A stretch of DNA of 64,000 nt from Climacium dendroides (lineage: Eukaryota; Streptophyta; Bryopsida; Hypnales; Climaciaceae), in the NCBI GenBank assembly GCA_950106755.1, contig CATNNA010000004.1, forward strand, positions 1,178,001 to 1,242,000, written 5' to 3'. The notes under the pieces were generated by a model. It saw only the letters and a program-made list of their open reading frames with translations. It had not been told where the DNA came from and did no database searches. This document shows, one piece after another, positions 3,363 to 64,000 of the stretch (the stretch's first letter is position 1; every line of letters starts with the position of its first letter). Position numbers and translations under genes: made by a program.

Positions 3363-4012
3363 TCAGCTATACGATGCACTCTTCATCTTTTCCCGAGCCC
3401 TTCGAATTTCTGGTCCCCGATTGTATCCCCCCTTGTTAATATGTCCAAAGTCTCGAATGTGCTGCCCCCTTTGTGCTTGCAACGACCTTCTTTCCCATGC
3501 GTCCCAACTTGGAGTTGAGACATCAGTACAGAATGATCCACTGCGTTTTGGTTTCTTCAATCTCCCCCGTTCAGACAGAATGTGTGGCCGTGGTATGAAT
3601 GGTCCAACAGCAGGGATCGGAAGCGTTTCCGAAAGCGGATGAATTGGGGCCTTGGACTTCTCTTGTGCTACGGAGGTTGGATAATTGGCGTCCCCGTAAA
3701 GCTTCCTCTGAGTCCCCTTGTCCGAGGCAGTTGGTGACATTGATGACGCTCGGAGATCTTTGGAGCGCAGAGGAGACGACGAGCATGAAACTAACAAGCG
3801 CGGTTTCTTCTCCGGCGGACTGTCCACCACTCCTCATCGATTGGTCTCCTTGAGAAGTCCATAGTGGAATTGACGGTCGGAGCTGAGCAGAGGAAGTTCC
3901 CAGTATTGAGTATAACGTACTGTCCATAATCGAAGATGGAGTCCGCAGATGCCTGACAGGGGAGTCCATCCGTTGCAGGGTACTCCGATGTGCTGTCCAT
4001 CTGCAACAAACG
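3363..4012 (-). pseudogene. Element gene 3, copy 1 (function unknown)
   Basis: The minus-strand reading matches the plus-strand gene at 37427-37972, so it is a repeated element gene and not a chance frame. Shared landmarks include SIFDYGQYVIL versus SILDYGQYVIL, FLCSA, VNSTMDF, SMSPTAS(D/E)KGTQRKLY and a C-terminal WERRSL(Q/E)AQ. The first part is read at 3800-4012 after the acceptor GTTTGTTGCAG. It then shifts frame near 3840-3860, with a stop, into the frame that ends at 3363. The protein is hydrophilic, without visible membrane segments or catalytic motifs. It lies directly downstream of the phosphatase-like gene in both copies, which suggests one cargo unit. No family was recognised. Confidence 0.55.
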
Positions 4013-4127
4013 TACCTTGAATTAGAATAGCAATCGAGGGAATTTCAACATTGGACATCATTTTGGGGTCTCCGTAGTCAAGATTGGTAGGAGAGTCCAC
4101 AACCGTGATTGCCCACGAAGTTGCAAA

Positions 4128-4147
4128 TTAGCGCGACTCGAGCTGAA
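4128..4147. repeat. Type I palindrome upstream of gene 3 copy 1
   Basis: TTAGCGCGACTCGAGCTGAA is a slightly decayed type I palindrome. It lies in the non-coding stretch between the phosphatase gene and gene 3, the same relative place as the type II palindrome at 37277-37299 in copy 2. Confidence 0.7.
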
Positions 4148-4234
4148 ATGTACGAGACTCCAAAAGTACTGAACGAGGCTTCAAAACACTACACATCAGC
4201 TCCACTCGCGCTGAATCGCATACCTCCAGTGGGT

Positions 4235-5344
4235 CAGCTATCTAGTGCCACTAGGCGACCCCCGAACCACCTTGATGAGCTCGTCGTACTCTCGACGATT
4301 CCTTTCCTCGCACAACATTTTTTGCCCGATTTTCCACTTCTTCGCTTTCCTGAACGCTTTGAGTCCCATGTCCTGGCTTCGGTGCAACTGTTGAAACCAA
4401 GGAAGTAGAACCCCGAGCAGGAACGTGTCCTTGTCTCCATTGCCCTTGTTACTCTAGGACTCCGAGACTACAACATTTTCCGATTTGTTCATGATGTGCT
4501 TTCGGCGGCTGTCGTCGACTACGACTGTATTGTCAGGAGTGAAGTTTGTTCGGCAGTCGGCGAAAAGCACGTCCAAGTTCTTGAGGAATAATGCTTTGTC
4601 GGTTCCCGGTTCCTTATAGGGGATCCACGTGCCGGCTCCATCCCAGCGCTTCAACGTTTTGCATGCATCTTGCCCGAGAACTTGGAAGGGCAACCCTCCA
4701 TCTCGGAACAGATAAGCGTAGATCTCATCAGTGGTGGACTTCTTCATGGAACTCCACACTGAGACGAATGCTATCCTGCCTAACTCCTTCAAGAACGCGG
4801 AGCAGTTGGGCCTGACGTAGACAGCCTTGGGTCCTACAATGGCCCCGATTGTGGCCGAGTGTGGCTCCGACTTCTGGTTGTACGCATTCCCTGACCCCTT
4901 GGACTTCCAATCTTCTGTGACACATAGAATGCCATTGAGGTCCAAGATGACGTTCAACCACTTCCCTGCCATCCCGGATCTCAATGACCTATGGACTCCC
5001 TCCGAGGATCCTTTATCAGAGCCCTACAGATCGGACCCCTGGTAACAAACGGCAGCAATCGTGTCCAGTCACGCCAAATGACACGAATTCTAGGAGGCAT
5101 CATTGCTCAAAATGAAGGCAGAAGAGTAATGAGTCCATCAGAACAAGAGGGCGCATTTTACCTTCCTCCGTATAGAACCTGAAGGTTCATCTTCGTTTTC
5201 CATTGCCAATAGTGCAAGACTAGGAAGTACCGATTGCTCATCCATTGGTTGTGCCTCATCTACGTTCGGGTGTGGTGAAGGCATTGGTGGAAGAGAATGT
5301 GCGACAACAGAAGGGCCTTTCTCAGGCAAGCAATCGACATTCAA
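4235..5344 (-). pseudogene. FCP1-like HAD phosphatase, copy 1
   Basis: Two exons on the minus strand. The first ends SIRRK before a GTAAAATGC donor near 5164. The second begins after TTTGTTACCAG near 5043. The protein shows the FCP1/SCP-type HAD pattern: motif I LDLNGILC, motif II SVWSSMKK and motif III VVVDDS. The second acid of the usual DxDx(T/V) motif is Asn. The DLNG form is, from memory, common in plant relatives, so activity is not excluded. An in-frame TAG interrupts exon 2 near its start and another at 4454-4456 follows the core. Coding similarity to copy 2 continues past it (NG.KDTFL, LPWFQQLH, MLCxExNR, YDEL). FCP1-type enzymes dephosphorylate Ser/Thr, classically on the RNA polymerase II tail; the substrate here is unknown. 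It sits between ParB-MTase and gene 3. Confidence 0.7.
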
Positions 5345-5523
5345 GTGGCCTGCGATTCATGAATCAGGAAAAATAGTTTTCGTGAGAAATCCATTTATTA
5401 CAATTTCATGAAATGAGTTTTAATTTACAAAACTAGTCCTACATTTTCTGTACCACCTGAATTGCTTCTAGTCGGCATGTTGTATCTACAATTGAATCTC
5501 TAGCCCAAAGACTACAATACAAT

Positions 5524-5542
5524 TCAACGCGAGTCGCGTTGA
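5524..5542. repeat. Type I palindrome 3' of ParB-MTase copy 1
   Basis: TCAACGCGAGTCGCGTTGA is a perfect palindrome around one central base. It lies just beyond the stop codon of the ParB-MTase-like gene, between it and the phosphatase gene. Copy 2 has a type II palindrome at the equivalent place (35841-35863). Confidence 0.8.
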
Positions 5543-6568
5543 GACTACACACAGGACACTGAATGGTCATTGGGCACAACCTGCAGGTGGTTCCTCGGTG
5601 GATTGGTCAGAACTTGCTTGCGTAGGCCCGGAATCTTCCACTGGCAGGATGCGCGCAATGCCAACGTCCTCCATTGCGGTGTCTCCCTCGCTGACGTCGA
5701 CACCACTCCGTTCAATGGCCTCTGGAGCTTCCTCTACCGGTGGGAGTGGCATCGAGACAGGATCCGCACTAGGAAGAGGTGGAGGCGCATTGTCCGAGTG
5801 CACCGGGCTTGAGGCATTGCTGATGTTGGAACTCGAGGGTTGGCCTTGCAGCAGCAGCGGAGGCGACTGCGTCGCAGGCTGTAGCTCAGCAAGAGGTTGG
5901 ATTCCGACCCTCGACATTAACAACTGTATGATCTCCCTGTTCCTCCGGGACTCTTCCTTCATCCAGTCCGTGTTCCGCTAGTGCATCTCCATATTCAACA
6001 GCCTCTCATTTGCATTGTCAGCTCTCATTTGAGCCAACGCTAGCTCCGTCTGCTTCTGTGAATTCTCCGTCTGCTTCTGCAGAGCCGCTAGAGATTCTGC
6101 GGTCGACCTCTGAATTTCAGCCAGTTGCTGGACGACACTGGTGATGGGATCTGCCTTCCTCTTCTTCTATGGCCGTCCAGAAGGAGTGGGCGTCCGCGGC
6201 GTCTGCGATAAGGGCGGAAGCATGGATGAAGCAGACGACCCTGGCACGTCGGTATGTCGTCTTGTTGGTGTAGGCATCTCTTCAATGCCTACATTATGAT
6301 CATCCATCTCCATAATGTCGTCTTCCTCCTCATCGGTGGAAATGTCTTCTACATCATCGTAGACTGGAGCCGCCTTCTTTCTGGCTGGAGACTCCTGACT
6401 TGATCTCAATTTCCGCTTGGAGGAGGAACTGGGACCTTCACCACTCTGGATGGGATACCCAGTGTCGAGAAAATCTGCCTTATCCAATGTGTAGGCCTTC
6501 GAACAGATTTTCTCCCAGTCAGGGGATTCCACTACGAATCCAACAGCGTACACGTTTACAAATGACAT

Positions 6569-6723
6569 CTGCAAGGGAGAGAAGCAGAGGGTAAGAATAC
6601 AATTGTAGACAGTGACAATTCAGCGCGACTCGCGCTGAATTGACGAGTGCGTGAAACCATGAAATTGAAGAGGAAGGAATCGAATCAGCGCTAGTCGCGC
6701 TGATCGGTAGTTAAGGGACATAC
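6569..6723 (-). repeat. Intron with two type I palindromes
   Basis: A 155-base intron with donor ATG/GTATGTCC and acceptor CTCCCTTGCAG/ATG. It contains the perfect 25-base palindrome at 6617-6641 (core TCAGCGCGACTCGCGCTGA) and a second at 6684-6704 (ATCAGCGCTAGTCGCGCTGA). The equivalent introns of copy 2 (34564-34757) and copy 3 (44487-44707) also contain two palindromes each, but of type II and type III. Confidence 0.85.
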
Positions 6724-8162
6724 CATTGCAGCGCATGTAAGTTTGCCTCCCGCAAAACAGGAGAAGATGCAACCCCCTAGAGCGCAAAAACTCTTCACGA
6801 GCCACAAATAGAACTCCATGCGCAACTCCAAGCTGTGGAGCCGGTATTTGAGCTCGCTGTAGGCACGTGCCTTCACGTACCGATTGGAGTCCGGGCATTC
6901 GTATTGCTCTGGAATACCCACTCCAATTGCGTTGCTGGGATGCTGAAGAAACACCAGAAACACCTTCGGCGGCTTATTCGACGCCGAAATATCTCCGAGG
7001 CGGTCATTCTTTTCCACATTGTACGTGGAGTAGTCCAATAAGAAGGAAGATAGAATCTCGTTCGACTCCACGAAGTGCAGGACCTATGCCTGTTCCTTCT
7101 CATCGCCGCAAATAAAGAGCCAGGAGGGAACATTCTAAAGTACCAGGTCGTGCATCTTGCGGAGTGACATCATTACTTCCTTGAAGTAAGGGTTGTCCAC
7201 AGTGGAGCTCCCTTTATTCTCGACTCCAGGTAATGTCTTCAAGTCGATCACGCCCAACGCCATTCTCTTCGACGTGTCTAGATCCCATGCTCTCGTTGGC
7301 CACTCCATAAAACTATTAGTGTTTTCAACGTATGGGCGGTAATAACCCTTGGCCGTAGATTTCTCGAATTTATTCTTGTGATGAAGAAATACGTTGAAAA
7401 ATTCGAATGCTTGTGGGGAGAGCTCCGCACAAGTCTTATTCTTTTGGCTGACGGATTTTGCTCTCCCGAAGTAGGCCTCTCCAGGTCGGTCGAGGAGCAC
7501 GTCCATCGTGGCTCTGGAAAACATTCACGACGTCTTGAATGCCTTCCAATTGTCCTTGATGATTTCGTTCTTGGCATTCATAAGTCCAAGCTCAAGATCG
7601 ATTTGGTGAAGCTCTTTCTTCACCAAGTGCTTGCGCTTCCGCCTCTCCGACCACTCCCTAGCGGTATAGCAACTCTGCAACATAGACGACACGGCCTTCA
7701 CCGTCACCTTCGGATAAGGCAAGGTGCGTTTCTCTCCCGTCTAGTTCAGCATATGCTTGGCGAGTGTCGCCAATTCGTCGTAGCTCAGGTTTCCCAGATG
7801 CTTGAAGAATTCTCGGTTGAGAAGGCAGTTATCTGGGTTCCATCCTTCCCTTGCATTAAACGTTCCCCGCGTGTCTGGGTTGATGAGCTCTCCGAATGCG
7901 GCCGCAGTGATAACCTCGCTCCAGAGCTTGTACACTTCCTCTGGGGCCGTGATTAGCTTGAGCTCATTCGTGAGCTTCAGCTTCTCCTCCTTGGACTTTG
8001 TCTTTGCAATTCGGAGGTTCTTGTTCACGTCAATCATCGAGAACCGCAAGAAGACGGCTTTCTTGAAGTCCTGAGGATCGTGCACAACACTTTCATTAGA
8101 CAAGGTGGTTTAATGATATTTGAATTGGCATTGCTAGTTGACTTGAGCCAAACTTGACACAT

Positions 8163-8181
8163 CAACGCAAACCGCGCTGAA
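8163..8181. repeat. Decayed type I palindrome in intron 1
   Basis: CAACGCAAACCGCGCTGAA keeps the outer arms but has a changed centre. It lies in the intron that begins with donor CAG/GTATGTATG at 8193, between the ParB-like exon and the linker exon. Copy 2 has a palindrome in the same intron (29641-29661). Confidence 0.6.
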
Positions 8182-9701
8182 ATGCATACATACCTGAAAG
8201 GACTCTCTGTTTCTTCTTGCTTCAACCGTGCGTCTTGTAGCCGTGCTGGTCCCAATGGACGCTGCTTGCGTAGGATTTCTTAGCTTCCCCATAGCCTCCC
8301 ACACTGACCGCGCTCCAAGGATATTCGTTGCCCATGATGGCTGCGCAACCTGGAAATGGTTTGTCCTATTGTAGAACGCGGAGATGAGCCTGAGCTTCTC
8401 TGCGTCATTTGACCAGACCACGAAGCACTTCCATTTCCGGAAGTGTTCCCTCTCCGTGCGGTCTACCTTGTTGGCGTCATCCATCATCCACTTACTGGTG
8501 GCGACGCTGTGCTGCCCATTGATGATGTAGAAATCGCCTTTCTCAATCTCTGCCCACTCCTTCGGTTTTTCATTGTATCCAACCAGCATGACGCAGAGCG
8601 TTTGTCTCGTGCTCTTGTCGGGCATATTTAGTAGCCAGTTCACTAAATCCTCGACAATTCGGTCCTCCTTCGAGCGGATGTTGAATGTTGCCGGAGGTGG
8701 GACTAGTTGAGAGATGTCAATTTCTTTCTTGTCATCAGTCTTGAAGATGTAGGCATCCTCACAAGTGGTCCAGAACTTCTTGTACACTTTGCTTACTTCT
8801 TCATAGTCTGGCTTTCTTTCCGTTGCTCGAGAATGAGGGACATGTGCCATCTCGTCGACGTAACTTGCCTCCGCAACTTCAGATACCTCAAAGGACCTTG
8901 CCAGAGGTGCCTGCACGGACGGGGATGCCTTACTTTTCTTCCCTTTCTTATTTTCCGGGGTTTTCTCTACCGGCTTTCTCGAATTTCTGGTTCCCCGAGC
9001 GCCTCCGGATTCCTGCGTGCTGTTGAGTCTGGAGCCCTGACTCACACCCTGTCTGAAGGTGTCCACTGAGACGGATCTCGGCTTGCTTAACTCGGTCTGC
9101 ATTACTAGCTTCCCTTTGAGTTGATCGAAGTCCTTGAACAAGGCACGAATCTTGCTGCAGAGCTTCTTGTGGTTCAAGGGCGTGCCATCTGAATTCTGCC
9201 ACTCATTGTTATCGATTTTTTTCTCCAACTCCTTTATTTCGTCCCGGAACGACGTGGGTTCTAGGCTTGCGAGGAGGGGTGTCATCACATACGGAATGAG
9301 GATGGAGTTTAGGCAGATTGTGAAGTGGTACTGGTCTTGAGGGGCAACGTTGGGAAACGTTGTCACACACTTCACTCTAACCATGGGGAAGGTGTCTGTT
9401 TCTAGATCTTTTACCATCTCCTCGTAGGAGAGGTTTAGAAACACCTGCGCGTTCTTGAACTTGTACGCGAAGCAGAAATTGTTTCTGAAAGGGATCATGT
9501 GGAATCCCCACGCTTCAACCCTCTCCAGATGTTTGAACTCCCAGTACTCGCCCTCGATGAGGGATCCATCTGTCTCGTTGGGGTCTTCAGGGTACTGAAT
9601 ATCACATCTGTCGAAGTACATTTCCAGTGCTTCTCTGTATTGATCCATTCTACGAGGAGAATAATAATATGTCAGGTGGCTTGTTATGAATGCACTTATC
9701 G

Positions 9702-10357
9702 GATCAGCGCGAGTCGTGCTGATCTGCGTTCGGTTCGTAGATTGTTGTTTTCGGCCTTGTTACATTGCTTGTCTGTTGTAGATGTTGAGGTATTTTCTAC
9801 TTATGAAGGTGAGGTTAGTTTCTATTGGGTTTGGTTCTCTATTCCGATGACATCAGTCATCTGGCTTCCTTATCTTTTACGGCAAGACTTAACGAATCAG
9901 CGCGGGTCGCGCTGATGTGTACCGTTGTTATATATTTGCGTTGTGGAATTCATGTATTTGGGTTCGTTTTATTTTCTCTTAGGTTGTCTGTTTTTACAGG
10001 AGAGACATTGCAGATCAGCGCGTCTCGCGTCGATCAGCGGTGCAGGGTTCTTAAATACTATGGAGTTGTGCTACTACAATTGAGAGTGGGTTGCTCTGAT
10101 TCGCTTGTCGGGAGATATTAGCGTAGCGGAATTCCTAGATTTTAGTTCAATTATATGAACTTAGTCAGTTTATGTTTTGAGGGCGACATTGCAGATCAGC
10201 GCAGCTCGCGCTGATATGCAGTTCTTTGTTTCAGGTGACGGACTCCAGCTAATCACTGTGATCCTTGAGCTACTTATCCTGTAGTCTACCTAGCCATGTC
10301 AAATTTTTCTGGCTTCCATGATAGTATATTGTCAAATCAACGCGGCTCACGCTGATT
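9702..10357. repeat. Five type I palindromes in the 5' leader of copy 1
   Basis: Sites at 9702-9724, 9896-9916, 10013-10035, 10195-10215 and 10335-10357 all have arms ATCAGCGC / GCGCTGAT with variable centres (GAGTC, GGGTC, GTCTC, AGCTC, GGCTC). Spacing is irregular, about 120-195 bases. They lie upstream of the splice acceptor that precedes the start codon at 9648, so they are probably in a 5' untranslated intron or promoter. The equivalent region of copy 2 (27403-28121) is laid out the same way with type II palindromes. Confidence 0.85.
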
Positions 10358-16557: not shown

Positions 16558-17351
16558 CACTTCAGCGCGACTCGCGCTGAAGTGCTTCTACTAGAGTTTC
16601 CATTGTCTTTGTGCAGACGGATCACCTAGACTCGCGTTTAATTGATATTCATCCCTGGTCGGGCTGAAGTGTATTCACAAAGGTAAAGGAATATGTAGTG
16701 TCGACACTTCAGCGCGACTCGCGCTGATGTGCACTGAAGTAAGCTGGTCTAGATCTGTATTCTATAAAATCGTGATGGAATATACTCTAGAGATACTCCA
16801 GATCTATCAGAGCTGAATTGCAATTCAGCACGACTCGCGCTGAAGTGTAGATACGCGTAGTGAAATGTATTTTGACGATATCACACCACGACTAATGCCT
16901 AATTACAATTTAGAGAGACTCGCGTTGAAGTGTCAGACTTATTGGATCTGAATTACAATTCAGCGCGAGTTGCGCTGAAGTGTAGATACGCGTAGTGAAA
17001 TGTATTTTGACAATATTCCACCACGACCAATGACTAATTGCAATTCAACGCGACTCGCGCTGAAGTGTCGTCACGGAGGGAATGAAATATATTGTGACGG
17101 TATTCCAGTGCGAGTAATTCCGAATTGCAATTCAGCACACAGAGAATGATGCTATTTTAGCTCAATTGGCGCTGAATTCTCATCACGCAGGGAGTGGAAT
17201 TAGTAACGACGTATGTCTACATCGTGGGTGCTAAATTGCAATTCAGAGTTGGTCGCGCTAAAGTGCAATCACCTATTGCATGAAATTGGTTGCGACAATA
17301 TGTTCGCGTCCTGGGAGCTGAAATACAATTCAGCGCCGGTCGCGCTGAATT
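16558..17351. repeat. Array of about ten type I palindromes
   Basis: The clearest sites are 16558-16584 (27-base perfect palindrome), 16705-16731, 16822-16846, 16957-16981, 17042-17066 and 17327-17351. Decayed ones lie near 16625, 16910, 17130 and 17240. Most have the core CAGCGCGACTCGCGCTG and flanks AATT or CACTT. Part of the array is a tandem unit of about 140 bases containing GTAGATACGCGTAGTGAAAT. The array lies between the TATA box and the splice acceptor just before the transposase start. The palindrome is the same as in ParB-MTase copy 1, tying the two genes to one element family. Confidence 0.85.
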
Positions 17352-17477
17352 GCCATTCGGATATTACTGCCGCTCAGAAATACCAACACCATTTACTCCG
17401 TCAATCAGGTCGATTGGTGTATGATGCCAGACATTGACTTCAATACTGCTTTTCATTTGGTTTTCCAGATACGTGAC

Positions 17478-20335
17478 ATGACTTCATCTGCGACTTTTGA
17501 CGACTTCATGGAATCCTCGGATGATGAATTTCCAGTTTTGGAAGGGATGAATGTAGGCATTTCTGAATGCGAAGGACTTCCGTGTCATCTTTGGAATACA
17601 AGATGTGTCACTCTTTACAATGAGGAGGGTCTACTTGTTGGCGAAGGGACTTGCCATAGTGTCAACTCAGACCTCGTGCTTGGAGCTAATGGTCCTCTTG
17701 GAGATACCCATGTAGCAGTTCACATCACCAAGACATTCTCAGAAGCGGATATCCCTCAGGAGCAGATTTACTATTTGGTAGCTTGGCCGATTAAACGAGT
17801 CCACTGTGCGAGAGCAAGTCTTCACGACCATGAGGCGCGAGACAGATTCAATCAGCTACAAGCCCGCCTCTTGAATCCACAACCTCTAGCATCTGTACGG
17901 CCATATTTAAGTATCCTTAGGAATCCACCTCGTGTGACCTCCCGTAGATCTAAGGAACTCCTCACTCCAGAGTGCATCAACTTGGTGTCTAGCAAAGTCT
18001 GTTGTTCCCAGAATTGCGTTCAACCGTTTCCAAGGGAGAAGATTCGGGCCTTCCGCGAGAGAATGTACTCCAATACATCATTCAAGTTCAGGTCACACAT
18101 GAAGACTGATGTACATAGGTCAGTGCATCTTGGTGCACGTGGGAGGAAGACAGTGACCGTTGAAGGCATCAACGTGTGCATGCGAGCATGGATGCATATT
18201 TCTGGGGTCTCGGAGGCTACATTCTATCGATACCTCAAATATTGGAAGGACGAACGAGAGGCAAGAGACCATGGAAATGTAGGATTGGAGAAGCCGAGAA
18301 AGCACACTCAACAAGCAACTGCCACACTAAAGTGCATCCTTGAAAAGGAGGCAGATCACATGCCACATCGTACTCGGACTTTGAAGTCAGGGGACAAGGT
18401 CGTATCCATGTGTCTTCCCTCTACTTTTCAGTGGAAGGGTAAGATGAAAGAAATTAATGATGTCAATGTAGCCTTCGGATTACCCGAAGTTTCTACTTCA
18501 AACCTGAGCAAGATCAGGTCCTCGAAGTTTTCAGAGTACGAGGTGAAAAAACCTGGTGATAATTTTGCTCGGTGTTCAGTGTGTGACAAACTACAAGAGC
18601 TACGAAGGAGTTGTATTGCTGGATCTCAAAGTGCTTTGATATGGTCAAGGAGGCTTGACAAACATTTGGTTATTGCTCGGGCACATAGGGAGCTGTACTA
18701 CGCAAATCGTTACCGCTCGCATGAGTTTCTACATGAATGTTTGACGATCATGCATGACAAGATGGACCATGCCAAGACCGCTTCTCCGGTTTTTTCCCAC
18801 AAAACTAAAGAACTTGATGGGCTCATGAAGTTGCCCGTCTCGGTCACTGGCATGATTGCGCATGGTCATGCTGATGTTCGATATGCGCACTATGGCTTGG
18901 ATATGTTTCCCCACGACTCAAACTACACTATTGGCTCCATGGCGAAGTTGCTTCGAGATTTGGAATTGCCACCAAAATCGTCTTCTCGGCAATTGTTTAT
19001 GGGGTCTGGATCCACAAATTTATCCAGGGCAATACTAAAGGGTGCCGAAGTTTGCGAAGCATCGCTACCTCCGCTACTGGAAACGTTATGTCTAGGGATG
19101 CCGTTGCCTCCTATTTTGAATGTGCAGATGGATAATGCCACCGGAGATAACAAGAATAGATTTGTTTTCTGTTATTGGTCTCTACTTGTTGCAAACAAGA
19201 TCTTTCGTGAAGTGTACGTGAACTTCATGATTGTGGGTCATACTCATGACGACATTGATGCGCTCTTTGGAAGATGGAGTATGCTTTTGAAGAAGGAAAA
19301 CTTCCTTACAATTCCTGCACTTATGAAGTCGTTTATGGATGTGGAATCCATTCCAACAATCCCTCACCTCATCGAAGAAGTGCCAGATTTCAAGGGTTTC
19401 ATAGCAGGCAAAGTTTTGGACGGCAATGACATCATGGTTGGACACACAAAGCCACAACAAGTGAAGTTCTACCTTGACTCGACTGGGTGTCCAGTCATGA
19501 AGTACAAAATGTTGTGCACTGATGTGGAGTGGTTGCCGAAGGGGACTGGTCGCCGAAGGGGACTGGTCATGGAATGAAATTGTGGAAGGAGGACTCTGAA
19601 GGGCAAAGTTTGTGGCCATGTAGAGTACCAGAAGCAATTCTGCCGAGTCCAATGAAAGGTGCAGAGGACATCTTGAAGGGCATATCCGGATTCGTGAGGT
19701 ATTGGGAGAATTTGTGCAATCAAGATCGCACTGGAGAGTACCGAAGACGCTATGAGCACGTAGTGCACTACTGGCAAGGTGTCAAGGTAGCATTGCTAGA
19801 ACCACTACCTTCATCTTCTATTTTGAAGGATGGTTTTTGGCCTACGAGCCGTATTCAAGCAACTCAAGTGGATGAATTAGACGAAGACGGCGAGGATCGT
19901 GAAGAGTTTGGGGAAGATGACGCGTACGTAGGCCCTTTGAGAGGTCGCCCACAACCATCCTTTAGGGTGGGTTGAGATCTCTTTGAAGGATATTTTGTTG
20001 CAGTTCGACCCGCAGATGGTGACAGTCATTCGGTTTGGATTGCAAGGGCGTTGTCTGATCCAAATTGTAATCCGGAGAAACCTAATTGTATACGCATTCA
20101 GTACTTCCGTCCAACATCGAGAGATGAAGATGTTCAAGACTTCTACACTGGATGGGACAGTGAAAGAGGTCTACGTTGGAAAGTGGATGAAATTGAACCG
20201 CCACTTTGGGAGCATACAAATGCTGTTATGACAGCGTGGAAGTCTAGCATTCGAAAAGATACTCGTCAATGCATGATCAAGATTCCTGCTGCTCAAATTG
20301 ACATTATCAACCAAAGTCTCGCATCCTACACTTGA
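17478..20335 (+). pseudogene. DUF7869-like DDE transposase, type I element
   Basis: The start ATG is ten bases after the acceptor TTTGGTTTTCCAG and aligns with the start of the second copy at 21670. About 945 residues are read with two lesions. N-terminal: a conserved block and the cysteine cluster CCSQNCVQPFP (about 175), and a helical ATFYRYLKYWK. Middle: CSVCDK (about 366). RNase-H-like core: HDKMDHAK, HGHADVRYAHYGLDMFP, MDNATGDNKNRF (about 550) and GHTHDDIDALFGRW (about 588), giving candidate catalytic Asp residues. C-terminal: YFVAVRPADGD and WIARALSDPN, a small beta-rich domain. A 17-base tandem duplication (CGCCGAAGGGGACTGGT) near 19535-19560 shifts the frame. A TGA at 19973-19975 replaces an Arg codon of the sister copy. 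The family name is from motif memory. Confidence 0.7.
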
Positions 20336-20700
20336 TATCTGTAGCTATGTAATATGTATGCATATGATTAGATGGTATAGTTTTGAGTGGATTGATTTTA
20401 TTTTATTGCTCGGCATTGCATTATTGATTTCAACTGTATATTTTGTGTTTACAGAACATTGGAATTTAAGTATAGTCTCAATATACTTCTTTTTATATTC
20501 TTCAGCACTCTTTTCTTTATTTTTTACTTCATTATCTTATTTTTTTATCATTGAGTATGTTTTATTTCAAATTACATTGTTATTGGGAAAAAAAGTAGTA
20601 GATATATCTACTATTTATTTGGTTAACAGATAAAGCACTTGTCACATTTTGGGTAGGGGGGCGGTTGGTTGTTACAACTTTCCTGCCTGCAAAGCTCATT
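20336..20700. other. AT-rich 3' flank
   Basis: This is the probable 3' untranslated region and flank of the preceding transposase gene. I see no coding potential. Confidence 0.4.
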
Positions 20701-28121: not shown

Positions 28122-28176
28122 AACATAAAGCAATTATAATGCTCTTACATGAACTAACCTTCCTCTACAATCTAGG

Positions 28177-34266: not shown

Positions 34267-34271
34267 ACCGC

Positions 34272-45715: not shown

Positions 45716-45793
45716 AACCATGCAGTTGGTTCCTCTCAATTTCTAGATTTCTAGCTCCTTGTGCTCTCTACCACAGTTCCAATTGTCTAACAG

Positions 45794-50302: not shown

Positions 50303-53300
50303 CTAAGTGGCGGTGGAGTTGGCCATAGAAACCTCACTGGAGGATGACTCTGGAGTCTCCTCACCTTCAGAAGCTGAAACGTCTAAAAAATGAACTACGT
50401 TTGCAGCATACTTGGGTTTGGAAGGCTTAGGCTCTCTACAACCATGTCGTTCATACTGTGATGCCATCTTCTCGGCATACACTAGAAGATCGTAAGACTT
50501 CTCGGGACTCAAAATAAGTCTTCTGATCTTCTTTACACAATGTTCATCCATCACTCCTTTGTTCCTTCAAAAACAAACAATGCAACGTTAGTCATATTGA
50601 TTTATGAAATGCAATACTTGTTGAATACAAAAATCTACATGTCTTCCAAAAGTGAAACTTACTTACTAGGTCTAATGTTGCGTGTAAACACCATTGGTTC
50701 CACGTGCACGGCATCCAGATCAAGAGCGGCAAAAACTTCTGCCGGAGCTTCTGTCATTTCTTGCACTGGAGCGGCTTTTTTCATTGGCAAGAGAACCCCC
50801 TTGAAGATATTCTCATCCTCCTCCAAAGCCACAATATGCCGTCCAGTGCCACGACATGCAAGAATCGATGCACCTATAGTACAACCATGCGAGCATTAGA
50901 AGTTCACAGATTTTACATACACACAAACATTTTAATTTAGGACTCTCATTTCAAAGTATTAAATCACTTGTAGTAGTGGTGCAGTCCAAAACTACATCTT
51001 CTTCATCCGAGCAACCTTCGATGAAAAATTGTAGGAACCTTGCATCTTTCTCTCGCGGCCCGCGCCAAGGCTTTTTTGATTCCTTGTTGACTAACATTGT
51101 CTCCTCGGTGATATAATTGATGACCATGTCCTTCCTCTGAAGATTCCACTTTGCTTTCGTCATGGCCTCAGTCTGCTTGAATGTGAAGGCTGATTTTTTT
51201 TTCTCACCCAAATTCTTCACAAAAAGGGTGACTCTGAACTTCACAGTCTGCAAAAAGGCAAAAAATGGTTTAGTGCAAGGGAGAATGCCGCTAAACCAAA
51301 TGACATGCGCGCTATACATTTAGAAAAACTTACCGTCTGACCAGGTGTAATACCCGACGCTAGGTCCAATTGGTTGAATGCCAACCACTCTTTCTTCAGC
51401 ACCAACTTCTTGAAGACGTTCTTCAGTCCCACAAACATACGCCGCGATTGAAGGCTGTATGAGTGAAATACAAGAACGCAGCCGTTGTCTTGTAAGCTCT
51501 CCTCGGCGAAGTGAAATGCATTTTGCATTCCTACACACGTTGGGTCTGAGTTCCATGCCGGAACATGCTTTTCAGAGATGAGTGGTACAGGCAGGTTCTC
51601 TTGGCAATCAAAAATAATAAGATCCACCAAAGGCTCTTGGCTCACCCTGCCGTTCAATGAACGAGGTTTTCCTACATTTGCCTACAGTCTAGTGATTGTA
51701 CATGTTATTAGAAGATAAAAAATGAAACTATTTGTTCATCAAGAAATCCTATGAAGTTACAAACTGAACTTCATGTTGCCACACACCTTTCGAATGAAGT
51801 CCATGACCTCAATATAAGAATTAGGTGGTGAACTCTCCAAATTGTCCATGATGTCAACAATGGATACATTCAAGATTAGTTCCTCCGACTTGACGTCGTC
51901 ATCATCTAATATAACCACTTGCGTGCCTTGTGTCACCATATCCTCTGTCCACTCGGCAAGCACAGCCTTCCTCTTCATCCCACTCTGACTTCCCTGCACC
52001 AACTGCGAGCTCTGATCGACCGCTGATGATGTAGGAACGACGATATCACCATCATCTTTTTTCTTCCCCTTTGCCTTTGCTTTCTCCTCCTTCTCCTTCT
52101 GCTTTTCCTTCTCCTTCTCTTCTATCTTTGCCAAACGCTCTGCCTCCTTTTTTTGCTTGTTATCCAAAGCAATTTGTAGACGATCCGTTTTCTTCTTGTC
52201 AGCGTTGTTCCTCCTTTCAATTGCCTTGCTCCTTTGATCTTCGATGAGGCCCGCAAACTCATCGACATCCATGTCCACCACTCCAATGTCCTTCAAGGAA
52301 TCGCGGAGTTGTACCTCCGATGGATGCGTGTACGATATAGGGCAATCAATATACCATCCACCGCCATTTAGATGAGCCGTGGTAAATGTTTTGAGCTGAT
52401 TTGCCGTGTACATGCAACTTGCGGAATTGCGATCTAGGAAGACCGAAAGGAATGGAGGAAGGTCTGCCCTCTGGATGGCTCCTTTTCCTTCCAGTTCAAA
52501 CTTGAAGTAGCTGCATCATGATAAACAAAGAATGGTAAGCACGAATTGTAAAAATCAAATTAGACAGAAGAAGAATTTCAATCTCGTGTACATGTGCTTC
52601 AAAGCAACATTTCTTATGTCTCAAGAAATAGAAGATCCAAAAATTAAATTGTAGACCTTTCAAAGGATAGAAATGGGGGTCCCCCAACTACTTCTAGAGC
52701 ATGCCTCGGATCCGAGGCATGTTCTACAGGTAGCCTAAGGACCCCCTATTTTTTTCCCTTCGTTCATCTCTAATAGGTTTCCTGCTTCAACAATGTATTT
52801 TTAGCCAAATGACAAGAGATTTTTAATTCAAATAGTCACTTCCAAATGAATATTTTTTTATCCAGTTAAAGACATACCAATAAAGGACCCTCTTCACTGC
52901 CTGTTGGGACCCCTCATAAGTGTTGAAGTTGTCGCTTTTCTTGAAGTACTTAGCTCCTCTAAGATGAGCCAAGAACCCGTGATCCCAAATTTTCCTCCTC
53001 CACCCTTCCAAGTATTCCGGTAAGGTTTCTGGTTGAAGCGGAACGTTCATATTGATGATGATGTTGTCTTGCTTGACAACTTCCTCGAAGTATTGTACAA
53101 CTGCATCTTCAATCTGTAGAAAGAGATGCCAAAACCAAAATCATATGATATGCACTGCCTTCCAAGAATTCTTATTTCTCAATATCCTAGTGAATATGAA
53201 CTATGATGGCTTTCAAGTTGAATTACATGAATAGGTAATCACTTACCCCTGCGTACCAAACACAACGGTTCAAGAAAGGACCAAGTAGTGTCTCTGACAC

Positions 53301-56035
53301 TGGCCTAGGCGGAAAACGTCTAGCATCATGTGATGGTGTAGAGGAGTTCCACCACTTCAGGAATTTGATCTTGTGATTTGCCGTGGTATTGCAAGTGGCC
53401 ACCATTTGGAGCTTCTCTAGAGTCATCTCCGGAACCTCATTGGAACTCCAATGTTTCTCAATCTGGTCAACAAAAGGAAAGCAGAGGATGTTAGATTCTG
53501 AGGTTTGCATGACATCAATAGATTCAGTTTATGATGTAGGTCATGAAATCACCTCATCTAGAAAACCTTGCTTGTTAGCTGGATTCGCCACCGCAACCAA
53601 CTTAGACATTTTGACGTTGAGTTTACTGGTCTTCTCATGAGCTCCGGATCTCATGGCATGCGCCAGTTCCTCAGGAGTTCTGTCGTCCTCCGGTGTCATC
53701 TCATTGTACCTCCGCCCTGTTGCATCTACTGATTAGGCAATTTCTTGCTGCAAAGGTGTGACAGAAAAGAATTACACATATATGATTGTATAATAAAATG
53801 GTATAGACAAATACAATAGAAACGAAGGGAGAAGCATTCACAAAGATTCTTACCCTGAAAACAAACGACGTGAAGACTTATAGTGGCATAGAATACCAAG
53901 TCTTTTTAGCTTTGTGTGCCCCACACAGTCGGACCTCCGATGGCCTGAGCATCTCTTTGAACCGCTCAATAGTAAGGAGACCATATTTTTGAACCCTGTA
54001 TAACGTGTGCACCAAATTGGTCTTCACGTGCAAGTCTTCCGTGGACCTGATATGCACAGAAGCGATTTCAGTTATTGTTGTATCCAGAAACTGCAACATA
54101 TCACAAACTATAAGAACAACCTAACTTGGGGGCTGAAGTGAGCGGCAACAGTCAAATACTACATGCAATCAACTGATAGGGTGCCTAAAAAACATTTGAG
54201 ATAAGCAGTATAATTTGTCCTTTAATGCTCCAGGGTCCTAAAATACCATTCTATGTCTTCTAACAACTATAGGGTATGTAATAATAGCGTTGTATTAAGT
54301 GTGTCTATTTTTAAAAAGAAAATGTAGACCTTTGAGAAGGTAAATCCATAAAACATAAACAATTTGAATATGAAGAAATGCATGTTATAGAGTTGACAAA
54401 GAAAATGTTCACTTAGTGTTACACAACATACAAATAAATTTTCCAAGAAAGGATGTGAAGAAAATAAATGATATGTTGAGTTAACAACAATGGATAACAT
54501 ATGGAATTTGAACATAAATAAATGGATGTCACAGAGTGTCCCCCCCTGAGAAATCAACTGAGGCATTAGAATTCCAAAGAGGGAGATTACACACTTACTT
54601 GTTAATGTCATGCATGACATGCATGACTAGCTCGGTCTTGCCCTTGGTATCTAGTACAATGGAATCCACTGCGTAATGCCACTCCTCGTCTTTCGAGTGT
54701 TTTTTGGTAATGTAACTCATCCACGAGATGAGTCTGTGATTACCATCACAAACATAGAATTTAATGTTCTTCAAAAACCTCAACTCGGGTTTGGATTCGA
54801 CACTAGCATTGAAGGCGTCATTTTTTGACTTCCACAATGGATCCCACTTCGCTATCTCCTCTTCTGTGAACTGTGAGCTTTCTCCAGCCTCATCTGTAGT
54901 AGTGACGTAGAAAACTGCCGCTCCTTCTCTGTAACCCTTGCTGAACTCATGCTCCAAGAAATCAAGATCACACGAGAGGGTAGGTCTCACCATGGGCATG
55001 GGAACCATTCGGCAAAGCGGGATTTGGAGTCAAAAGAGGTGAGGTGGCTTCATCCTCAATGAAGCAATGGTATTCACGGAGTCCACCTTGTGATATTGTC
55101 GGAGATCGTCTTCCAACAAGTCCTTATCATCGGCCAGCAATAGGTCATCCAGAACGTCCTCCTCCATTGCGTCTCCCTCTTCTTCACCATCACCTTCACT
55201 TGCAATGGGCGGTTGCGTTGAATCATCGGTGTTTGGCGTTTCCAGAATAGTCTCCTCATGCCACAGGTTTGTAGGAGTCGCATCCATCTGCAAGGCTCAA
55301 ACATAAAACTAAGCAGCATGCTTGGACTTTTATCAATGGATCCAAATTCCCCTACAAACAAAAACATACTGGTATTCTAAAAACAAATGATTGCAAGAGA
55401 AATGACGCAGCTCAGGCAAAAGATTTAGTAACAAAGAACATGCATTGTATAAGACACGCTCACAAGCGATGTGTCTTTGAAGGAAATCCAATACAATGGG
55501 ATCACTCTATCTCTACATCATCCTCTGAGTCAGAGCTGAGATGGATGATGACGACTTCTTCTAAACCTTGGAGCGAACTACGTGCACAATCGTGGGTCTC
55601 CTCCATCGGTGGCCCATCAATGGTGATGGACCCCTACGTCTTTGAGGAATACTCAGTGTCCGAACTCTCGGGAGATATACACTGCAGTGGGCGGTTTCTA
55701 GCCATCTCAAGTATAACTTGAAGACGTCTACGATTCTGTGCGGGCGTAAAGTGGCGTGCATGTCTCGGCGCTCGGATGTCACTCACCCGACTGAGTTTAG
55801 AACTCTCAAAGGCATCGACAGCGTGATTAGCTGCGTCCATAACATCATCAAAACTTACCAACTGCTCTTCATCAACTTGATCTTCCTCAGTGTCTTTGTC
55901 TTCATCAGAATCGTGAAGAACCTCTAGAGTCTCCTTCACTGGTGTGAGAGCCTGAGATGGTCCTGCCTCATGGGTGCCCATAACATGAGGAGGTGCCGAG
56001 GTCGATGAAGAGACATTTTGGCCACGTCGAACCTT
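50303..56035 (-). pseudogene. ParB-like / MTase-like protein, copy 4 (type IV)
   Basis: A multi-exon minus-strand gene, more split than copies 1-3. Exons lie at about 55634-56035 (acidic), 54600-55287 (ParB-like), 53878-54090, 53545-53735, 53240-53462, 52870-53115, 51790-52510, 51335-51690, 50990-51250, 50650-50878 and 50303-50560. The ParB part is clearest here: IPLCRMVPMPMVRP, then FYVCDGNHRLISWMSYI. A Lys/Glu-rich coiled coil (about 52060-52240) precedes the methyltransferase-like fold, which has VDLIIFDCQENLP at the DPPY position. It continues with KPWRGPREKDARFLQFF, VVLDCTTTTS and, across an intron, GASILACRGTGRHIVALEED. These are motif I and the acidic strand after it, with a well-formed motif I region. 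A TGA at 55030-55032 and a TAA near 53722 may be real lesions or mis-set exon edges. Confidence 0.62.
52675..52757. repeat. Type IV compound palindrome in an intron of copy 4
   Basis: The core TGCCTCGGATCCGAGGCA (52700-52721 with its flanks) is a perfect palindrome with GGATCC at the centre. It is enclosed by a GGGGGTCC on the left (about 52675) and GGACCCCC on the right (about 52740), making a nested inverted repeat of about 80 bases. It lies in the intron between the exons at 51790-52510 and 52870-53115. Confidence 0.85.
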
Positions 56036-59900: not shown

Positions 59901-60343
59901 CTTTTCTGAAATTGTTTTTACCTATGTATGACAAGGACATTTTACGTGTGCATTTGTAATGAGCATTCACATTAATTGAGAAGAGAAAACCTTTAAATAT
60001 TTTATTTTTAATGGCATTGAAATCCTAGGGATTCGTTAGGATGTAATTAATTGATTCCTAGGGGAGCTTCACTAGGTTTAACAGTGAAGTAGTTTTTTGA
60101 ATTCAATGTACATGGAAGACATTATTGTTTAATGGCAATTGCCATGTCATGGAAGTAAATGTCTGAGGAAGAAGAATACGGCACAATTATTTGGTTCAAC
60201 CCTGAGTCTGTAAGACTACCCTAGACTAAAGGATTTCCGGAATCTTAATCATTCAAAAGCCAAAGCTTTGTTGTTGTTTACCTCTTCTCCTTGCTTGCAT
60301 TTAGATTTCCGGCATTCTTTGAGTGCCTCCTCCAGTTGCAACA
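57000..60343. other. Region between the divergent type IV genes
   Basis: A mostly unassigned stretch. A minus-strand exon-like frame at about 58911-59210 starts at an ATG and is basic (RPRKRGKRRG). It crosses one TGA and ends at an ATG/GTAAGAAG donor, so it could be the first coding exon of copy 4. Short frames at 57394-58017 are unconvincing. The last 700 bases before 60344 are AT-rich and probably hold the promoter and leader of the transposase gene, but no clear TATA box was chosen. Confidence 0.35.
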
Positions 60344-62503
60344 ATGGCATCGATGAGAGTTGATGGTTATGACGTTCCTCTTGTATTCCCGGTTGGTGAT
60401 GATGGACGCGCTAGAGTCCCTTGTCACCTCCTACACGTCCGATTCAAATTTGTAGAGTCCTCCATCTATGTCGAGGAAGAAAAAAGGTCGGAATCAGGTG
60501 AAGTGCTTCAGTCTATTCCGCTAGTGAAGTCGGAGGAGGATGGAACGTGTTGTTGGTATCTTACTCCTGGGAACTACAGAGCGTATGGACTTCCACTCTC
60601 CATGCTAGGTGCGTCTACAAAAATCCAGAGTCGCCAGTCAGATAATTCTACAGTGGATATGCCATGTAGTCCTTCTGCCCTATCACCTACTCCAACTAGA
60701 AAAGCTCTACGAGTCCCACTCATGCCTCCAGTACTTCTTGATGTGAAAGTGGAGAGGTTAGATCCAATTATAGAGTTGTCCACCGAATCTGAAGGAGAGT
60801 CTCCCAATGTCCATGCTCCAAATCAAAGTTGTTCTGTCCAGATTGCATCTGGAGAGACAGGCATTGGGAAATCACTATCTAGTACCCCGTCAAGAAGTCT
60901 CTCTAATTCGTCAATGTCACTACCTCCAATACAAACACAGGTACAAGCAAAAGCAAGCATCATGGAGTGTTTGAGAAGACTTGCCACTATGCATCGCTCT
61001 CGAAATGAATTGTCAACAATGGATTTGAGCACTGTGAAGCACCAAAGGGTTCCGTTTCTCCCACCTGTATACGACGGGGATGTCATCTTCGAATTGCCTC
61101 CTTGTGGAACATCTTCATCTTCAACGGGGGCCAAGCACTTGGAAGGAATGGACAAGCGCTACGATGGACATCCGTAGTGCAAGCTCGTGACCACAAACAT
61201 CCACAACTCCGACAATCTCAAATTCCGTAAGTCCTACTGCGCTGGCCATCTCGTTTGTGAGAGTGCCAACTGTCAATATTTGAAAAGAGCCTCACGGCAA
61301 AATGAAACTGAGTGGAGTGGCTACACTGTGTTTCCTTTCACTGTTGGCGGGTGTCCCCCAAAAGAATCCACCCTAGTTTGCAAGGTTTGCAGGATGCCAC
61401 CGACGTGTTTTAGTACATGCAAGGCTAGGATATACTTTGCATATACTGATAATCCAGAAATGACTAGGGCTGCTATTCACCTTGGAGAGCATGGCCACCC
61501 TGTTGCTAGAGGTATGTATAGAGATTCTACTAAAGTGATTTGCGGACTCATCGCGGAGCAAGTGGCCAAAACACCCACAGCCACAAACTCCGCAATTACT
61601 CTCTCTGCTAGTAAAGACTTTCTCGGGAACTATCTATTTCACAATGGAGAGGGAGAGAAGAAGATGTTGAAAGCAGAGGAAATGGAGGAGGTCATGGATC
61701 GCTTCCAATATTTGAGTAGTCCAAGTATTCGCAACGTTATCTCTTCTTTCCGTTCTAACAACCATGGAGGGATAATCGACAACATTATGACCATGAAGAG
61801 AGAATCGAAGTTTGAGTTCATACATGACAGCGTCTTCCGAGGTCAAGGCAAGGAAAAGGTATACATTTTCAAGATGCTTACAAAAGGACCCGGAAGTGGA
61901 GTGGACCTCGTCAGGCGGATGCAGCCAATAGGGGACTTGGAAAATGCGTGGTTGATGTTTGACCATGTGAAGTGCGTGAAGGACTGGACCACAATGGCTT
62001 GCCACGTGTATGATACGGAGTATAAAAAGGTGATGACTATTGCAATGTGCAATATGCAATCTGAAGATACAGAAGTTCAAGTACAATTTTGGCGGAGCCT
62101 GAACGCTGTCATGCATCACCATGGAGTGGCAAATCCTAACTTTAAGGGATTCATGGCAGATAGCGCCATGGCCAACTGGAATGCGGTTCGCATTGTGTAT
62201 GGCAGTGGCTCTGCCAATGATGAAATGGAGAATCGCGAGAGGACATGTTTGTTACATTGGAGTACCTCTCTTCACAAGCATACGCAGAAGTACATCAAGG
62301 AAGCATTCCAACAGCAACATATTACTTTGTGTAAACAATACAAAGATTCGGAAAACATGGTCCAAGCTAAGGTCTGCTATCTCGCAATACGGTCTTGGTG
62401 GTTGTCCTCTGGAGCTGCTGGCGAAGAAGGTCTATATCACCTAGACCATTGGCTAGCGTTTTGGCATTTCCAATACCGTCAATGGGGAGGCTTCATGGAC
62501 ATG
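60344..62503 (+). pseudogene. WRKY-GCM1-like zinc finger plus MULE-like transposase, first exon
   Basis: A single frame of about 720 codons broken only by TAG at 61175-61177. N-terminal: about 240 residues of low-complexity Ser/Pro-rich sequence after a conserved start. DNA-binding part: KRYDGHP-stop-CKLV, FRKSYCAGHLVC, NCQYL and a late HLGEHGHPVARG. The spacing of Cys and His fits a WRKY-GCM1 type zinc finger, and the stop sits where Trp is expected. Transposase core: AWLMFDHVKCVKDW, FMADSAMANWNAV (second Asp) and TCLLHW (the Cys-His pair of MULE-type proteins), then WHFQYRQWGG. The exon ends ATG/GTGAGTG at 62503. Expected role: DDE strand transfer of the type IV element in the nucleus. Confidence 0.66.
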
Positions 62504-62795
62504 GTGAGTGAATTGTGAATTTTAATGTGTACTATGACTAAAGGTTTTGAAGCTCATTTTGTTATAGGAAACTCTACATTCTAGACAGCATTTTAATTTT
62601 GTCTTTTATTTTTATTGGGATTTTGGAATATTTTCCTCCACACTACCAAAATGGGGGGGTCCTACAAACACCATAGAAACATGCCTCGGATCCGACTGAC
62701 GTTTTGGAGGTGTCATCATGACCCCCTCATTTTCGTTAAATGTAAAGGATAATTGAGTGCTGGTAATAGCAAATGCTAAATATTTTTCTTTACAG
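62504..62795 (+). repeat. Transposase intron with a type IV compound palindrome
   Basis: The intron runs from GTGAGTG to TTTTCTTTACAG. At 62651-62729 it contains GGGGGGGTCC, the half-decayed core ATGCCTCGGATCCGA and ACCCCCTCA. This is the same nested palindrome as in the intron of ParB-MTase copy 4, so both genes of the type IV element carry it in introns. Confidence 0.85.
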
Positions 62796-62834
62796 GAAAA
62801 GAAGTTGGAAGAAATGACTTCATTATGTCTACAG
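62796..62834 (+). other. Possible short exon of the transposase gene
   Basis: After the acceptor at 62795 the frame EKKLEEMTSLCLQ is open for 13 codons and then meets TAA. The exon must end before that, but a standard GT donor was not found, so its 3' edge is uncertain. Confidence 0.3.
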
Positions 62835-62987
62835 GCATAATTATATTCCTACCAATAGGAGTGATTACAAGGGTGTCACCTTCTGGAATTACACAAGGAA
62901 CCAAGATACACGGTCAGGAATTTGGAAGTTCACACAATTGTACATATGAATTACTAACTCTATTATTCTCTTGCGTGGAATTTGTAG

Positions 62988-64000
62988 AAATTAAACTTGG
63001 AGGAGATGTTGGACTTGCCATCATGCAATTTATCCGAAACGGTGCATAACAAGTGGCTACAAATGTCTGGAAAACGAGGAAACAACTTGTTTGACGCCAC
63101 ATGTGATGATAGTATCCGGGCTTGGATGCAAATGACCAACTACCGTGCATACTTGAAGGGATATGCATCAGGATCAGGGCCATCAAAGGGGGAGCTGAGG
63201 TTGAGAGCTGCTAGGAGAAGTGGAGATCCCAAAAAAATCGCAGAGGCATTGAACACATTGCTTGGAGCAGAGGGTGTGGGAACTAGAGTGCCACACTTGG
63301 AAGGAGAAGAGATTTTTGGGAGCACTAAGAGGAAATTGGACGTGCCCATTGGTGATGCAGGAGACTCCCATAGACCGGACAAGATCAACTTTTCTCAACC
63401 CCGTATGAGAAGGAGGTCCACCACAAGTGCCTCTCAATCTTCTGAAGACAAGGGTAAACAACTTCAGCCAAATACTTCTCGTCATGTTGCGGTAGCATTT
63501 GAAAGCGATTGCGACACATCAAAATGGCACATTGCTAGAATCAGCCACAAATCCAACGCAAGATGCCAAGCCCAACAACATAGATCGAACATCAAGTGCA
63601 CCAGCAAAATTGCAAAAGGGAAGAAGGGTACTCCAGCTCCTACTTACCGTGGTCGAAAAGAAGAGTACGGGAGTAAGCGAGAGGTGGTGGCTGATTTCTG
63701 GTTTTGTTGGGATGACATTGAACGATGCGTGAAAGGAACAAAGCGGAAGTGGGTTCTTGATTGGCCGGAGGTGCTGGAGGTTTGGCCAGTCTTGTCCGGA
63801 ACTAACTTAAACCGAGAGGAGACATTGTTGCTACAGTACGCAGGATTTCGACTCCAAGAACAACCAATTTTGCCACCACGTCGGTTGTTCAACATGTCGA
63901 AGGTTTTTAATCCTATTTTGTATGAGCAGCCGTTACCGAAGAACTCAGATGTGTATCCAACAGTGAGGAACAGCAGAGCCATTCGAAGGATTGCAAATGC
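62988..64000 (+). CDS. MULE-like transposase, C-terminal exon, runs off the window
   Basis: After the acceptor GTGGAATTTGTAG a frame is open without a stop to the end of the window (about 337 codons). It begins KLNLEEMLDLPSCN and continues NKWLQMSGKRG, FGSTKRKLDVP, SHRPDKINFSQPRMRRR, WHIARI, APTYRGRKEE and FCWDDIERCVKG. It has basic and Ser-rich stretches and a Cys/Trp-containing C-terminal part. It is the likely continuation of the transposase gene by strand, spacing and splice acceptor. The true end lies beyond 64000. This exon shows no lesion. Confidence 0.6.

Follow-up and report, generated by a model that had tools for sequence, protein, structure and literature searches.

Do genes that join a ParB-like and a methyltransferase-like domain, found in a moss beside DUF7869 genes and repeated palindromes, mark transposons that recognize themselves? 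The question is raised by a stretch of 64,000 nucleotides of Climacium dendroides (contig CATNNA010000004.1 of assembly GCA_950106755.1, positions 1,178,001 to 1,242,000; hereafter, the window), in which three homologous loci encode such a protein. We consider the chances about even that the window holds decayed large moss DNA transposons with palindrome-based self-recognition through this ParB-methyltransferase-fold protein. An element of this kind would consist of two head-to-head genes, one for a DUF7869 protein (taken as the transposase) and one for a ParB/methyltransferase-fold/coiled-coil/FCP1-like protein, with palindromes, mostly of one class per element, lying ahead of each gene and within the ParB-gene introns. 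The assembly searched for further copies comprises 123 contigs totalling 412.6 Mb.

Moss genes joining ParB-like, methyltransferase-like, and FCP1-like domains

Loci 1 (minus strand, 9648-4256), 2 (plus strand, 28177-37174), and 3 (plus strand, ~42169-45715) are mutually homologous and align with moss proteins across the span from the ParB to the methyltransferase domain. Their parts, together with an open reading frame (ORF) that trails the first two, are as follows.

8194..9648, minus strand: locus 1 exon 1, N-terminal domain and ParB-like domain (INGQHS), by homology and the fold of relative P0001
6724..8070, minus strand: locus 1 exon 2, helical part and methyltransferase-like domain, with 4 in-frame stops, by homology and the P0001 fold
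5568..6568, minus strand: locus 1 exon 3, end of the methyltransferase-like domain and coiled coil, with 2 in-frame stops, by homology
4256..5023, minus strand: locus 1 FCP1/NIF phosphatase-like exon (DLNG), Pfam PF03031 at 4457-5023
3363..4020, minus strand: ORF behind the FCP1 part of locus 1, with a counterpart behind locus 2 (~51% identity)
28177-29612 and 29779-30945, plus strand: locus 2 ParB and helical/methyltransferase exons, by homology
34261-34580, 34758-35723, and 36398-37174, plus strand: locus 2 methyltransferase end, coil, and FCP1/NIF part
37427..37972, plus strand: trailing ORF of locus 2, homologue of the 4020-3363 ORF
42169..45715, plus strand: locus 3, a diverged ParB-methyltransferase-coil remnant (GQYS), by homology

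The FCP1/NIF domain of locus 1 was recognized by PF03031 with an E value of 7.6e-11 and 42.4 bits, against a cut-off of 21.8 that two moss relatives also exceed (P0002 and P0008; 50.2 and 46.4 bits), and it is C-terminal in the moss relatives, as in loci 1 and 2. A phmmer comparison of the exon with solved structures returned no relative at an E value of 0.01. Locus 3, in which no FCP1 part was found, is a more distant member. The trailing ORF of locus 1 gave no significant Pfam match (3366-3833 scanned) and that of locus 2 a best Pfam E value of 0.21; compared with each other, the two show constraint at the protein level.

A search with locus 1 (exons joined, stops entered as X) recovered, at an E value of ≤0.001, 20 proteins, 7 from Physcomitrium patens and 13 from Ceratodon purpureus (best E value, 8e-267), with PF03031 present in 11 (4/7 and 7/13, respectively); one Ceratodon cluster holds 139 sequences. 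With a five-row profile, 76 matches at an E value of ≤0.01 were obtained among the best 7994 candidates scored, mostly in ENA contigs and with up to 83% identity to locus 1 over the aligned part. The relatives hold long open frames. In six stretches compared between loci 1 and 2, differences at third codon positions are 1.6 to 2.2 times as frequent as those at first positions, the pattern left by purifying selection on the encoded protein. In the window itself, the copies are disrupted, with in-frame stops or frame breaks in the ParB-family loci and DUF7869 genes. Three of the four stops in exon 2 of locus 1 sit at Gln or Arg codons of the relatives, as expected if methylated cytosines had decayed while the copy was silenced. 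Locus 2 is split between its methyltransferase exons by one of three groups of related ORFs (30946-34260; the others at 38423-39724 and 47200-48522) that look gag-like by eye; Pfam scans of two of these ORFs gave no significant match.

The AlphaFold model of the Physcomitrium relative P0001 (mean pLDDT, 62.7 with 71 sequences and 31.3 with 20 relatives from the two moss groups) shows a ParB fold and a beta-class methyltransferase fold. No ParB was matched by sequence when the genome was searched with PF02195, so that the ParB assignment rests on the fold. Both folds had been proposed by an earlier, sequence-only reading of the window, whose ParB-like part stands for the GQHS and GQYS loci. The coiled coil that it described as a tail is followed in loci 1 and 2 by the FCP1/NIF part, a domain it overlooked, as it did the loss of catalytic motifs described below.

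Palindromes shared by the two genes of an element

The window contains 29 near-perfect palindromes, against 3, 3, 4, 6, and 3 in five Markov shuffles. They are 19 to 21 bases long, with the centre CGASTCG in several classes. At up to three mismatches, classes I and II together have 29 sites and class III has 12, with 0.01 expected in each case, in support of the palindrome classes noted earlier. Their positions, with those of two DUF7869 genes, are given here.

1706..1900: class III palindromes at the left end (1726, 1821, 1861)
4128..10355: class I palindromes, TCAGCGCGASTCGCGCTGA, 10 sites around locus 1 (4128, 4196, 5524, 6620, 6685, 9704, 9897, 10015, 10196, 10337)
16562..17348: class I palindromes, 7 sites upstream of a DUF7869 gene (16562, 16709, 16825, 16910, 16960, 17045, 17330)
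17349..20336, plus strand: DUF7869 (transposase-like) gene of element I, its later part in other frames (PF25273, 6.4e-43)
21062..21295: class III array, six sites ~40 bases apart, with a seventh at 21608
21671..24520, plus strand: DUF7869 (transposase-like) gene beside class III palindromes, in several frames (PF25273, 1.3e-41)
27407..37297: class II palindromes, TTAGCGCGASTCGCGCTAA, 12 sites around locus 2 (27407, 27529, 27628, 27694, 27858, 27913, 28101, 29642, 34584, 34685, 35843, 37279)
44516..46020: class III-like palindromes in locus 3 (44516, with 3 mismatches; 44621, CTTGAGGATATCCTCAAG; 46000)

Locus 1 and the stretch preceding the DUF7869 gene at 17.3-20.3 kb both carry class I. Class III is found before the 21.5-24.5 kb DUF7869 gene as well as in locus 3, and it forms tandem arrays with a 40-base period at 1.7-1.9 and 21.06-21.3 kb. 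For locus 2, no transposase-like gene of class II was found in the window. The proposal that three of the fusion genes are accompanied by a DDE transposase with the same palindrome class is upheld for the class I and class III pairs, with the DDE identity presumed. Locus 1 and the first DUF7869 gene, on opposite strands, delimit element I at ~3.4-20.3 kb (~17 kb if the two genes mark its ends), and the pieces of this DUF7869 gene up to 20332 are homologous to the second copy in the window.

All 22 sites of loci 1 and 2 lie outside the modelled coding exons. Among the 10 noncoding compartments of these loci (in each, three introns, the 5' flank, and the sequence that follows the FCP1 part), 9 hold a site and the tenth holds one at four mismatches. 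The exon limits of locus 3 are too uncertain to place site 46000 inside or outside coding sequence. The arms of class I and II palindromes are complementary at 91.4% of positions, against 24.7 to 42.1% with slid partners, and their covariation stands out from that of shuffled partners in three of five measures (1, 0, and 0 of 500). Class II differs from class I by one base pair (2/18): the 17 sites of element I comprise 15 pure and 2 mixed ones, and the 12 of locus 2 comprise 11 pure and 1 mixed. That class II is merely deaminated class I is unlikely, as both arms have changed at one pair and the CG-rich core is kept in most sites. The relatives spell the same palindrome a short way beyond splice donors that their open frames run through, at up to three mismatches in 12 of 28 tails (13 of 29 before P0004, a long protein and not a tail, was dropped), against a control mean of 2.09 and maximum of 5 in 100 draws. 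The class I/II pattern of the window was used for this count; back-translation of the tails to any palindrome did not discriminate.

Between the genes of element I, the interval 12946-14616 holds 175-base repeats arranged in inverted arrays with arms of up to 269 bases (94%). A 15-base candidate for a terminal repeat of element I was rejected, as it belongs to class III. The sequence ACTCTCATTTTAATG adjoins the two class III arrays in exact, inverted copies (1912-1926, minus strand; 20913-20927, plus strand) and recurs at 25255-25269 (minus strand), past the end of the 21.5-24.5 kb DUF7869 gene, with two mismatches. It is a candidate terminal repeat of a class III element; at up to three mismatches it has 9 matches against 3.5 expected, and inspection of its flanks by eye showed no target-site duplication.

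Recurrence of the association in the same genome

PF25273 matches the genome at least 150 times (best 150 of 1819 candidates), and the matches are of two kinds, starting at about profile position 6 or about 31-54. We surveyed the first 20 listed copies of the kind starting at 31-54, to which those of the window belong, scanning 10 kb of upstream DNA per copy, extended to 14 kb in ten cases. With ParB-protein profiles (E value, 0.001), the fusion gene was recognized in 15 of the 20 regions, 14 times on the opposite strand, head-to-head with the DUF7869 gene. In 19/20 regions, the 2.4 kb before the DUF7869 gene contain two or more near-perfect palindromes, whatever their kind; over all regions, 193 palindromes were counted, against 15 in one shuffle per region. 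Their kinds are listed below.

Large family, 14 of the 20 regions by their DUF7869-side sites: TTATCGTCGAGTCGATGATAA with TTATCCTCGASTCGAGGATAA
L016: TATCGTCGACTCGACGATA
L020: GTATCGTCGAGGCGACGATAC
L027: TATCTTCGACTCGAAGATA, the class being recognizable in only one of three palindromes
L032: TTATCCTCGAGCCGAGGATAA, the same as class III of the window
L017: GTTCAGAGCGGTCGCTCTGAAC

Palindromes from opposite sides of the same element differ little: with seven representatives (six regions plus element I of the window, the large family counted once), the summed distance is 3, a value matched in 16 of 5040 permutations. Clear separation is limited to three groups, namely, the TATC type, the L017 type, and class I of the window. 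Two 4-kb stretches upstream of the other DUF7869 kind (L043 and L044) gave 1 and 3 palindromes, none of these classes, a thin control of class specificity at two stretches. Copies beyond the window thus show the fusion gene, a DUF7869 gene, and palindromes together; with both folds predicted as well, neither of the outcomes named beforehand as contradicting the earlier reading was observed. In viral contigs, neither class I palindromes nor relatives of the DUF7869 protein were found, nor any confirmed relative of the ParB protein.

Locus 4 and other features of the window

50303..55283, minus strand: locus 4, with a GNHR motif, a coil, and then a methyltransferase-like domain (~51684-50657)
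52700..52721: class IV palindrome CATGCCTCGGATCCGAGGCATG between locus 4 exons, with related sites at 56445, 56951, and 62680
60323..62518, plus strand: putative transposase of another type in two ORFs, MULE-like by eye only

Locus 4 had been grouped with the other three under one domain order. Loci 1 to 3 are indeed homologous, but an hhalign profile comparison of locus 4 with their family gave no homology, and its coil precedes the methyltransferase-like domain. The methyltransferase-like exons match phrog_18293 (4.7e-7), a CcrM model (1.4e-4), and Pfam N6_N4_Mtase (E value, 2.7e-4; 21.4 bits, below the cut-off of 26.7; profile positions 34-217 of 221), with DCQE and TTTTS at the expected places of the catalytic and cofactor motifs. 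The GNHR motif is the sole basis for a ParB-like part here. A protein database search returned nothing at an E value of 0.001 among the best 7995 candidates scored. To judge from these sequence features, locus 4 may be at most a second lineage of similar make-up. Class IV comprises one perfect site, one with three mismatches, and half sites, and the ORFs at 60323-62518 have no Pfam match and no similarity to the DUF7869 protein. Between locus 4 and this putative transposase lies a 221-base duplication (95%; 56272-56492 and 56778-56998) that includes a class IV half site. Near the left end of the window, in the interior of the contig, positions 760-803 hold ~6 copies of AACCCTA, a plant telomere-like heptamer.

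Proposed self-recognition and its alternatives

We infer that the ParB-methyltransferase-fold protein would bind the palindromes as a dimer and mark the element as self. Most likely, like VANC proteins, it would counter host silencing and so maintain transcription of the element; alternatively, it may assemble the transposase on the element. The element-specific reader suggested earlier remains the best reading in this form, with the qualification that some families have common palindrome variants.

Several observations weigh against self-recognition of this kind. Binding of the palindromes is a prediction, and the central DNA-binding helices of ParB follow the fold with a pLDDT of <50 over most of 367-448, leaving them unconfirmed. 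No ParB gene was recognized in five regions (L014, L017, L019, L024, and L029), where palindromes lie beside DUF7869, and in 6 of the 15 others (L018, L021, L023, L026, L030, and L031) only the gene edge was (E values, 3e-6 to 3e-4). L025 has its ParB gene on the same strand and no palindromes before the DUF7869 gene. The large family makes up 14/20 regions and 10/15 with a ParB gene, so that the regions are not independent, and the sites at its two genes differ by one base pair. Its ParB-side sites are identical to the DUF7869-side sites of L032, which indicates loose specificity, and the five TATC-type representatives overlap (distances of 0-3, with five off-diagonal zeros); the permutation test hinges mainly on L017, one of the regions without a recognized ParB gene, and on class I of the window. 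Two of the five covariation measures fall within the shuffles (82 and 110 of 500), and the covariation is mostly that of pair 2/18. DUF7869, to which Pfam assigns no function, is presumably a transposase, as its copy number and residues seen by eye suggest; terminal inverted repeats, ends, and target-site duplications were not found for element I.

The main competitor, which we rate as unlikely, is that the palindromes are binding sites of the DUF7869 transposase, the ParB-methyltransferase protein being a passenger or having another task. En/Spm transposases have subterminal repeats as comparable sites, and palindromes lie just before the gene in 19/20 DUF7869 copies, including all five without a recognized ParB gene. 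This account is countered by the sites that the ParB-gene introns also carry, by locus 2, for whose 12 class II sites the window offers no DUF7869 gene of the same class, and by class IV, which accompanies a protein unlike DUF7869.

The N6/N4 methyltransferases have a catalytic motif DPPY (more generally, [DNS]PP[YFW]) and a motif I of the form FxGxG; FCP1/NIF phosphatases have the catalytic motif DxDx, and the canonical nucleotide-binding box of ParB bears an Arg. Looked for anywhere in the protein, [DNS]PP[YFW] occurs in 0/37 relatives with the motif IV strand, and it occurs in 0/7 ORF pieces from six regions of the same genome, which may not all span the motif; the motif IV place reads mostly D[FL]RxLPG in the relatives. 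The final Gly of FxGxG is replaced by Lys in 21/23 relatives and by Asn in 2/23, and an ORF of L016 contains an FxGxG string at an unchecked position. The FCP1 motif reads DLNG, with the second Asp of DxDx turned into Asn, in 10/10 relatives in which it was found, in loci 1 and 2, and in L025. The ParB box is NGQHS in 52 of 53 matched sequences and NGQYS in the other, a putative counterpart of the canonical box. It is improbable that an active methyltransferase, of the N6-adenine or N4-cytosine kind, is encoded here and marks its own transposon, as PMC12477816 suggests for algal proteins. The predicted beta-class fold, the purifying selection, and the matches of locus 4 to the CcrM and N6_N4_Mtase models would agree with such an enzyme, but the missing signatures, including DCQE and TTTTS at the motif places of locus 4, speak against it. 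Because catalytic signatures are gone while purifying selection is kept, these sequences suggest that the protein is probably a reader or scaffold rather than an enzyme.

It is very improbable that the palindromes are RNA hairpins or signals for splicing or transcription. Nearly every intron holds a site, 8-base arms with a 3-base loop could fold as RNA, and at locus 2 G-U departures outnumber A-C ones (12 versus 5); however, arrays also lie upstream of genes, the counts over loci 1 and 2 and the class I upstream sites are 20 G-U versus 13 A-C, and Rfam gave no match. Least credible is a family of domesticated host genes unconnected with transposition, whose models falsely fuse neighbours: the long open frames of the relatives would fit, but 139 members in one Ceratodon cluster, the head-to-head placement with a high-copy DUF7869 gene in 14/20 regions, and the recurrence of PF03031 in 4/7 Physcomitrium and 7/13 Ceratodon proteins and two window loci argue against this account.

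Returning to self-recognition, we advance tentatively, and with some doubt, a more specific proposal, that three enzyme folds without catalytic signatures (ParB, N6-adenine methyltransferase, and C-terminal domain [CTD] phosphatase) form one self/non-self reader of a palindrome code in promoter and introns. Code and reader would diverge together, and the element family would chiefly protect or mobilize itself.

Comparison with known systems

The 21.5-kb giant DNA transposon Sola1-1_Ec32 of Ectocarpus carries, opposite to its transposase, a protein of 1104 amino acids with ParB-like and N6/N4 methyltransferase domains, and PMC12477816 has already put forward accessory proteins as a class whose members bind and modify the transposon that carries them, citing Iyer, Abhiman and Aravind 2011 and Petroll et al. 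2025. The moss protein likewise unites both domains on the strand opposite to the transposase, a likeness of domain content and layout set by the published description; if DUF7869 is the transposase, the layout is that of 14/20 regions of the same genome and of element I. By that description, the moss elements differ in their host, DUF7869 gene, FCP1-like C-terminus, lack of catalytic motifs, and palindromes. What is added here is the moss family, the FCP1 fusion, the catalytic motif loss, and the palindromes. Within the open-access literature, we found no moss ParB-methyltransferase transposon and no palindromes of such a kind.

For the VANC proteins of Arabidopsis VANDAL elements, PMC5735166 shows binding and methylation loss with a nine-base motif, YAGTATTAY, which evolves together with the VANC protein. 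The moss palindromes resemble this motif in being short, family-bound, and changing in class, and in lying in noncoding parts including introns, upstream, and in tandem repeats, with loose specificity among the TATC-type families. The VANC motif is nonpalindromic, and the likeness is one of motif distribution, not of protein kinship. Together with the Sola1-1_Ec32-like layout, this distribution leads us to favour self-recognition with an anti-silencing or transposition role.

Other systems share single parts. With the bacterial fusion of a ParB domain to an adenine methylase (Bacillus cereus; PMC5512222), the moss gene has the ParB fold in common, but it is eukaryotic and intron-bearing, with GQHS in the ParB box. 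The elements of Symbiodinium and charophytes that carry DNA methyltransferases (DNMTs) are retrotransposons with active C5 enzymes (PMC5890265). With FCP1/NIF phosphatases, the moss proteins share a PF03031 match above the cut-off, apart from the Asp-to-Asn change.

Implications

If the reading of palindrome-based self-recognition is true, it would be the second example in land plants of sequence-specific self-recognition by transposons, beside VANC. A single genome would then provide many natural pairs of protein and site, in which recognition could be swapped and read out directly. It also raises the puzzle of three enzyme folds retained without catalytic residues, and the ParB-like sites would offer a chance to test how new specificity arises.

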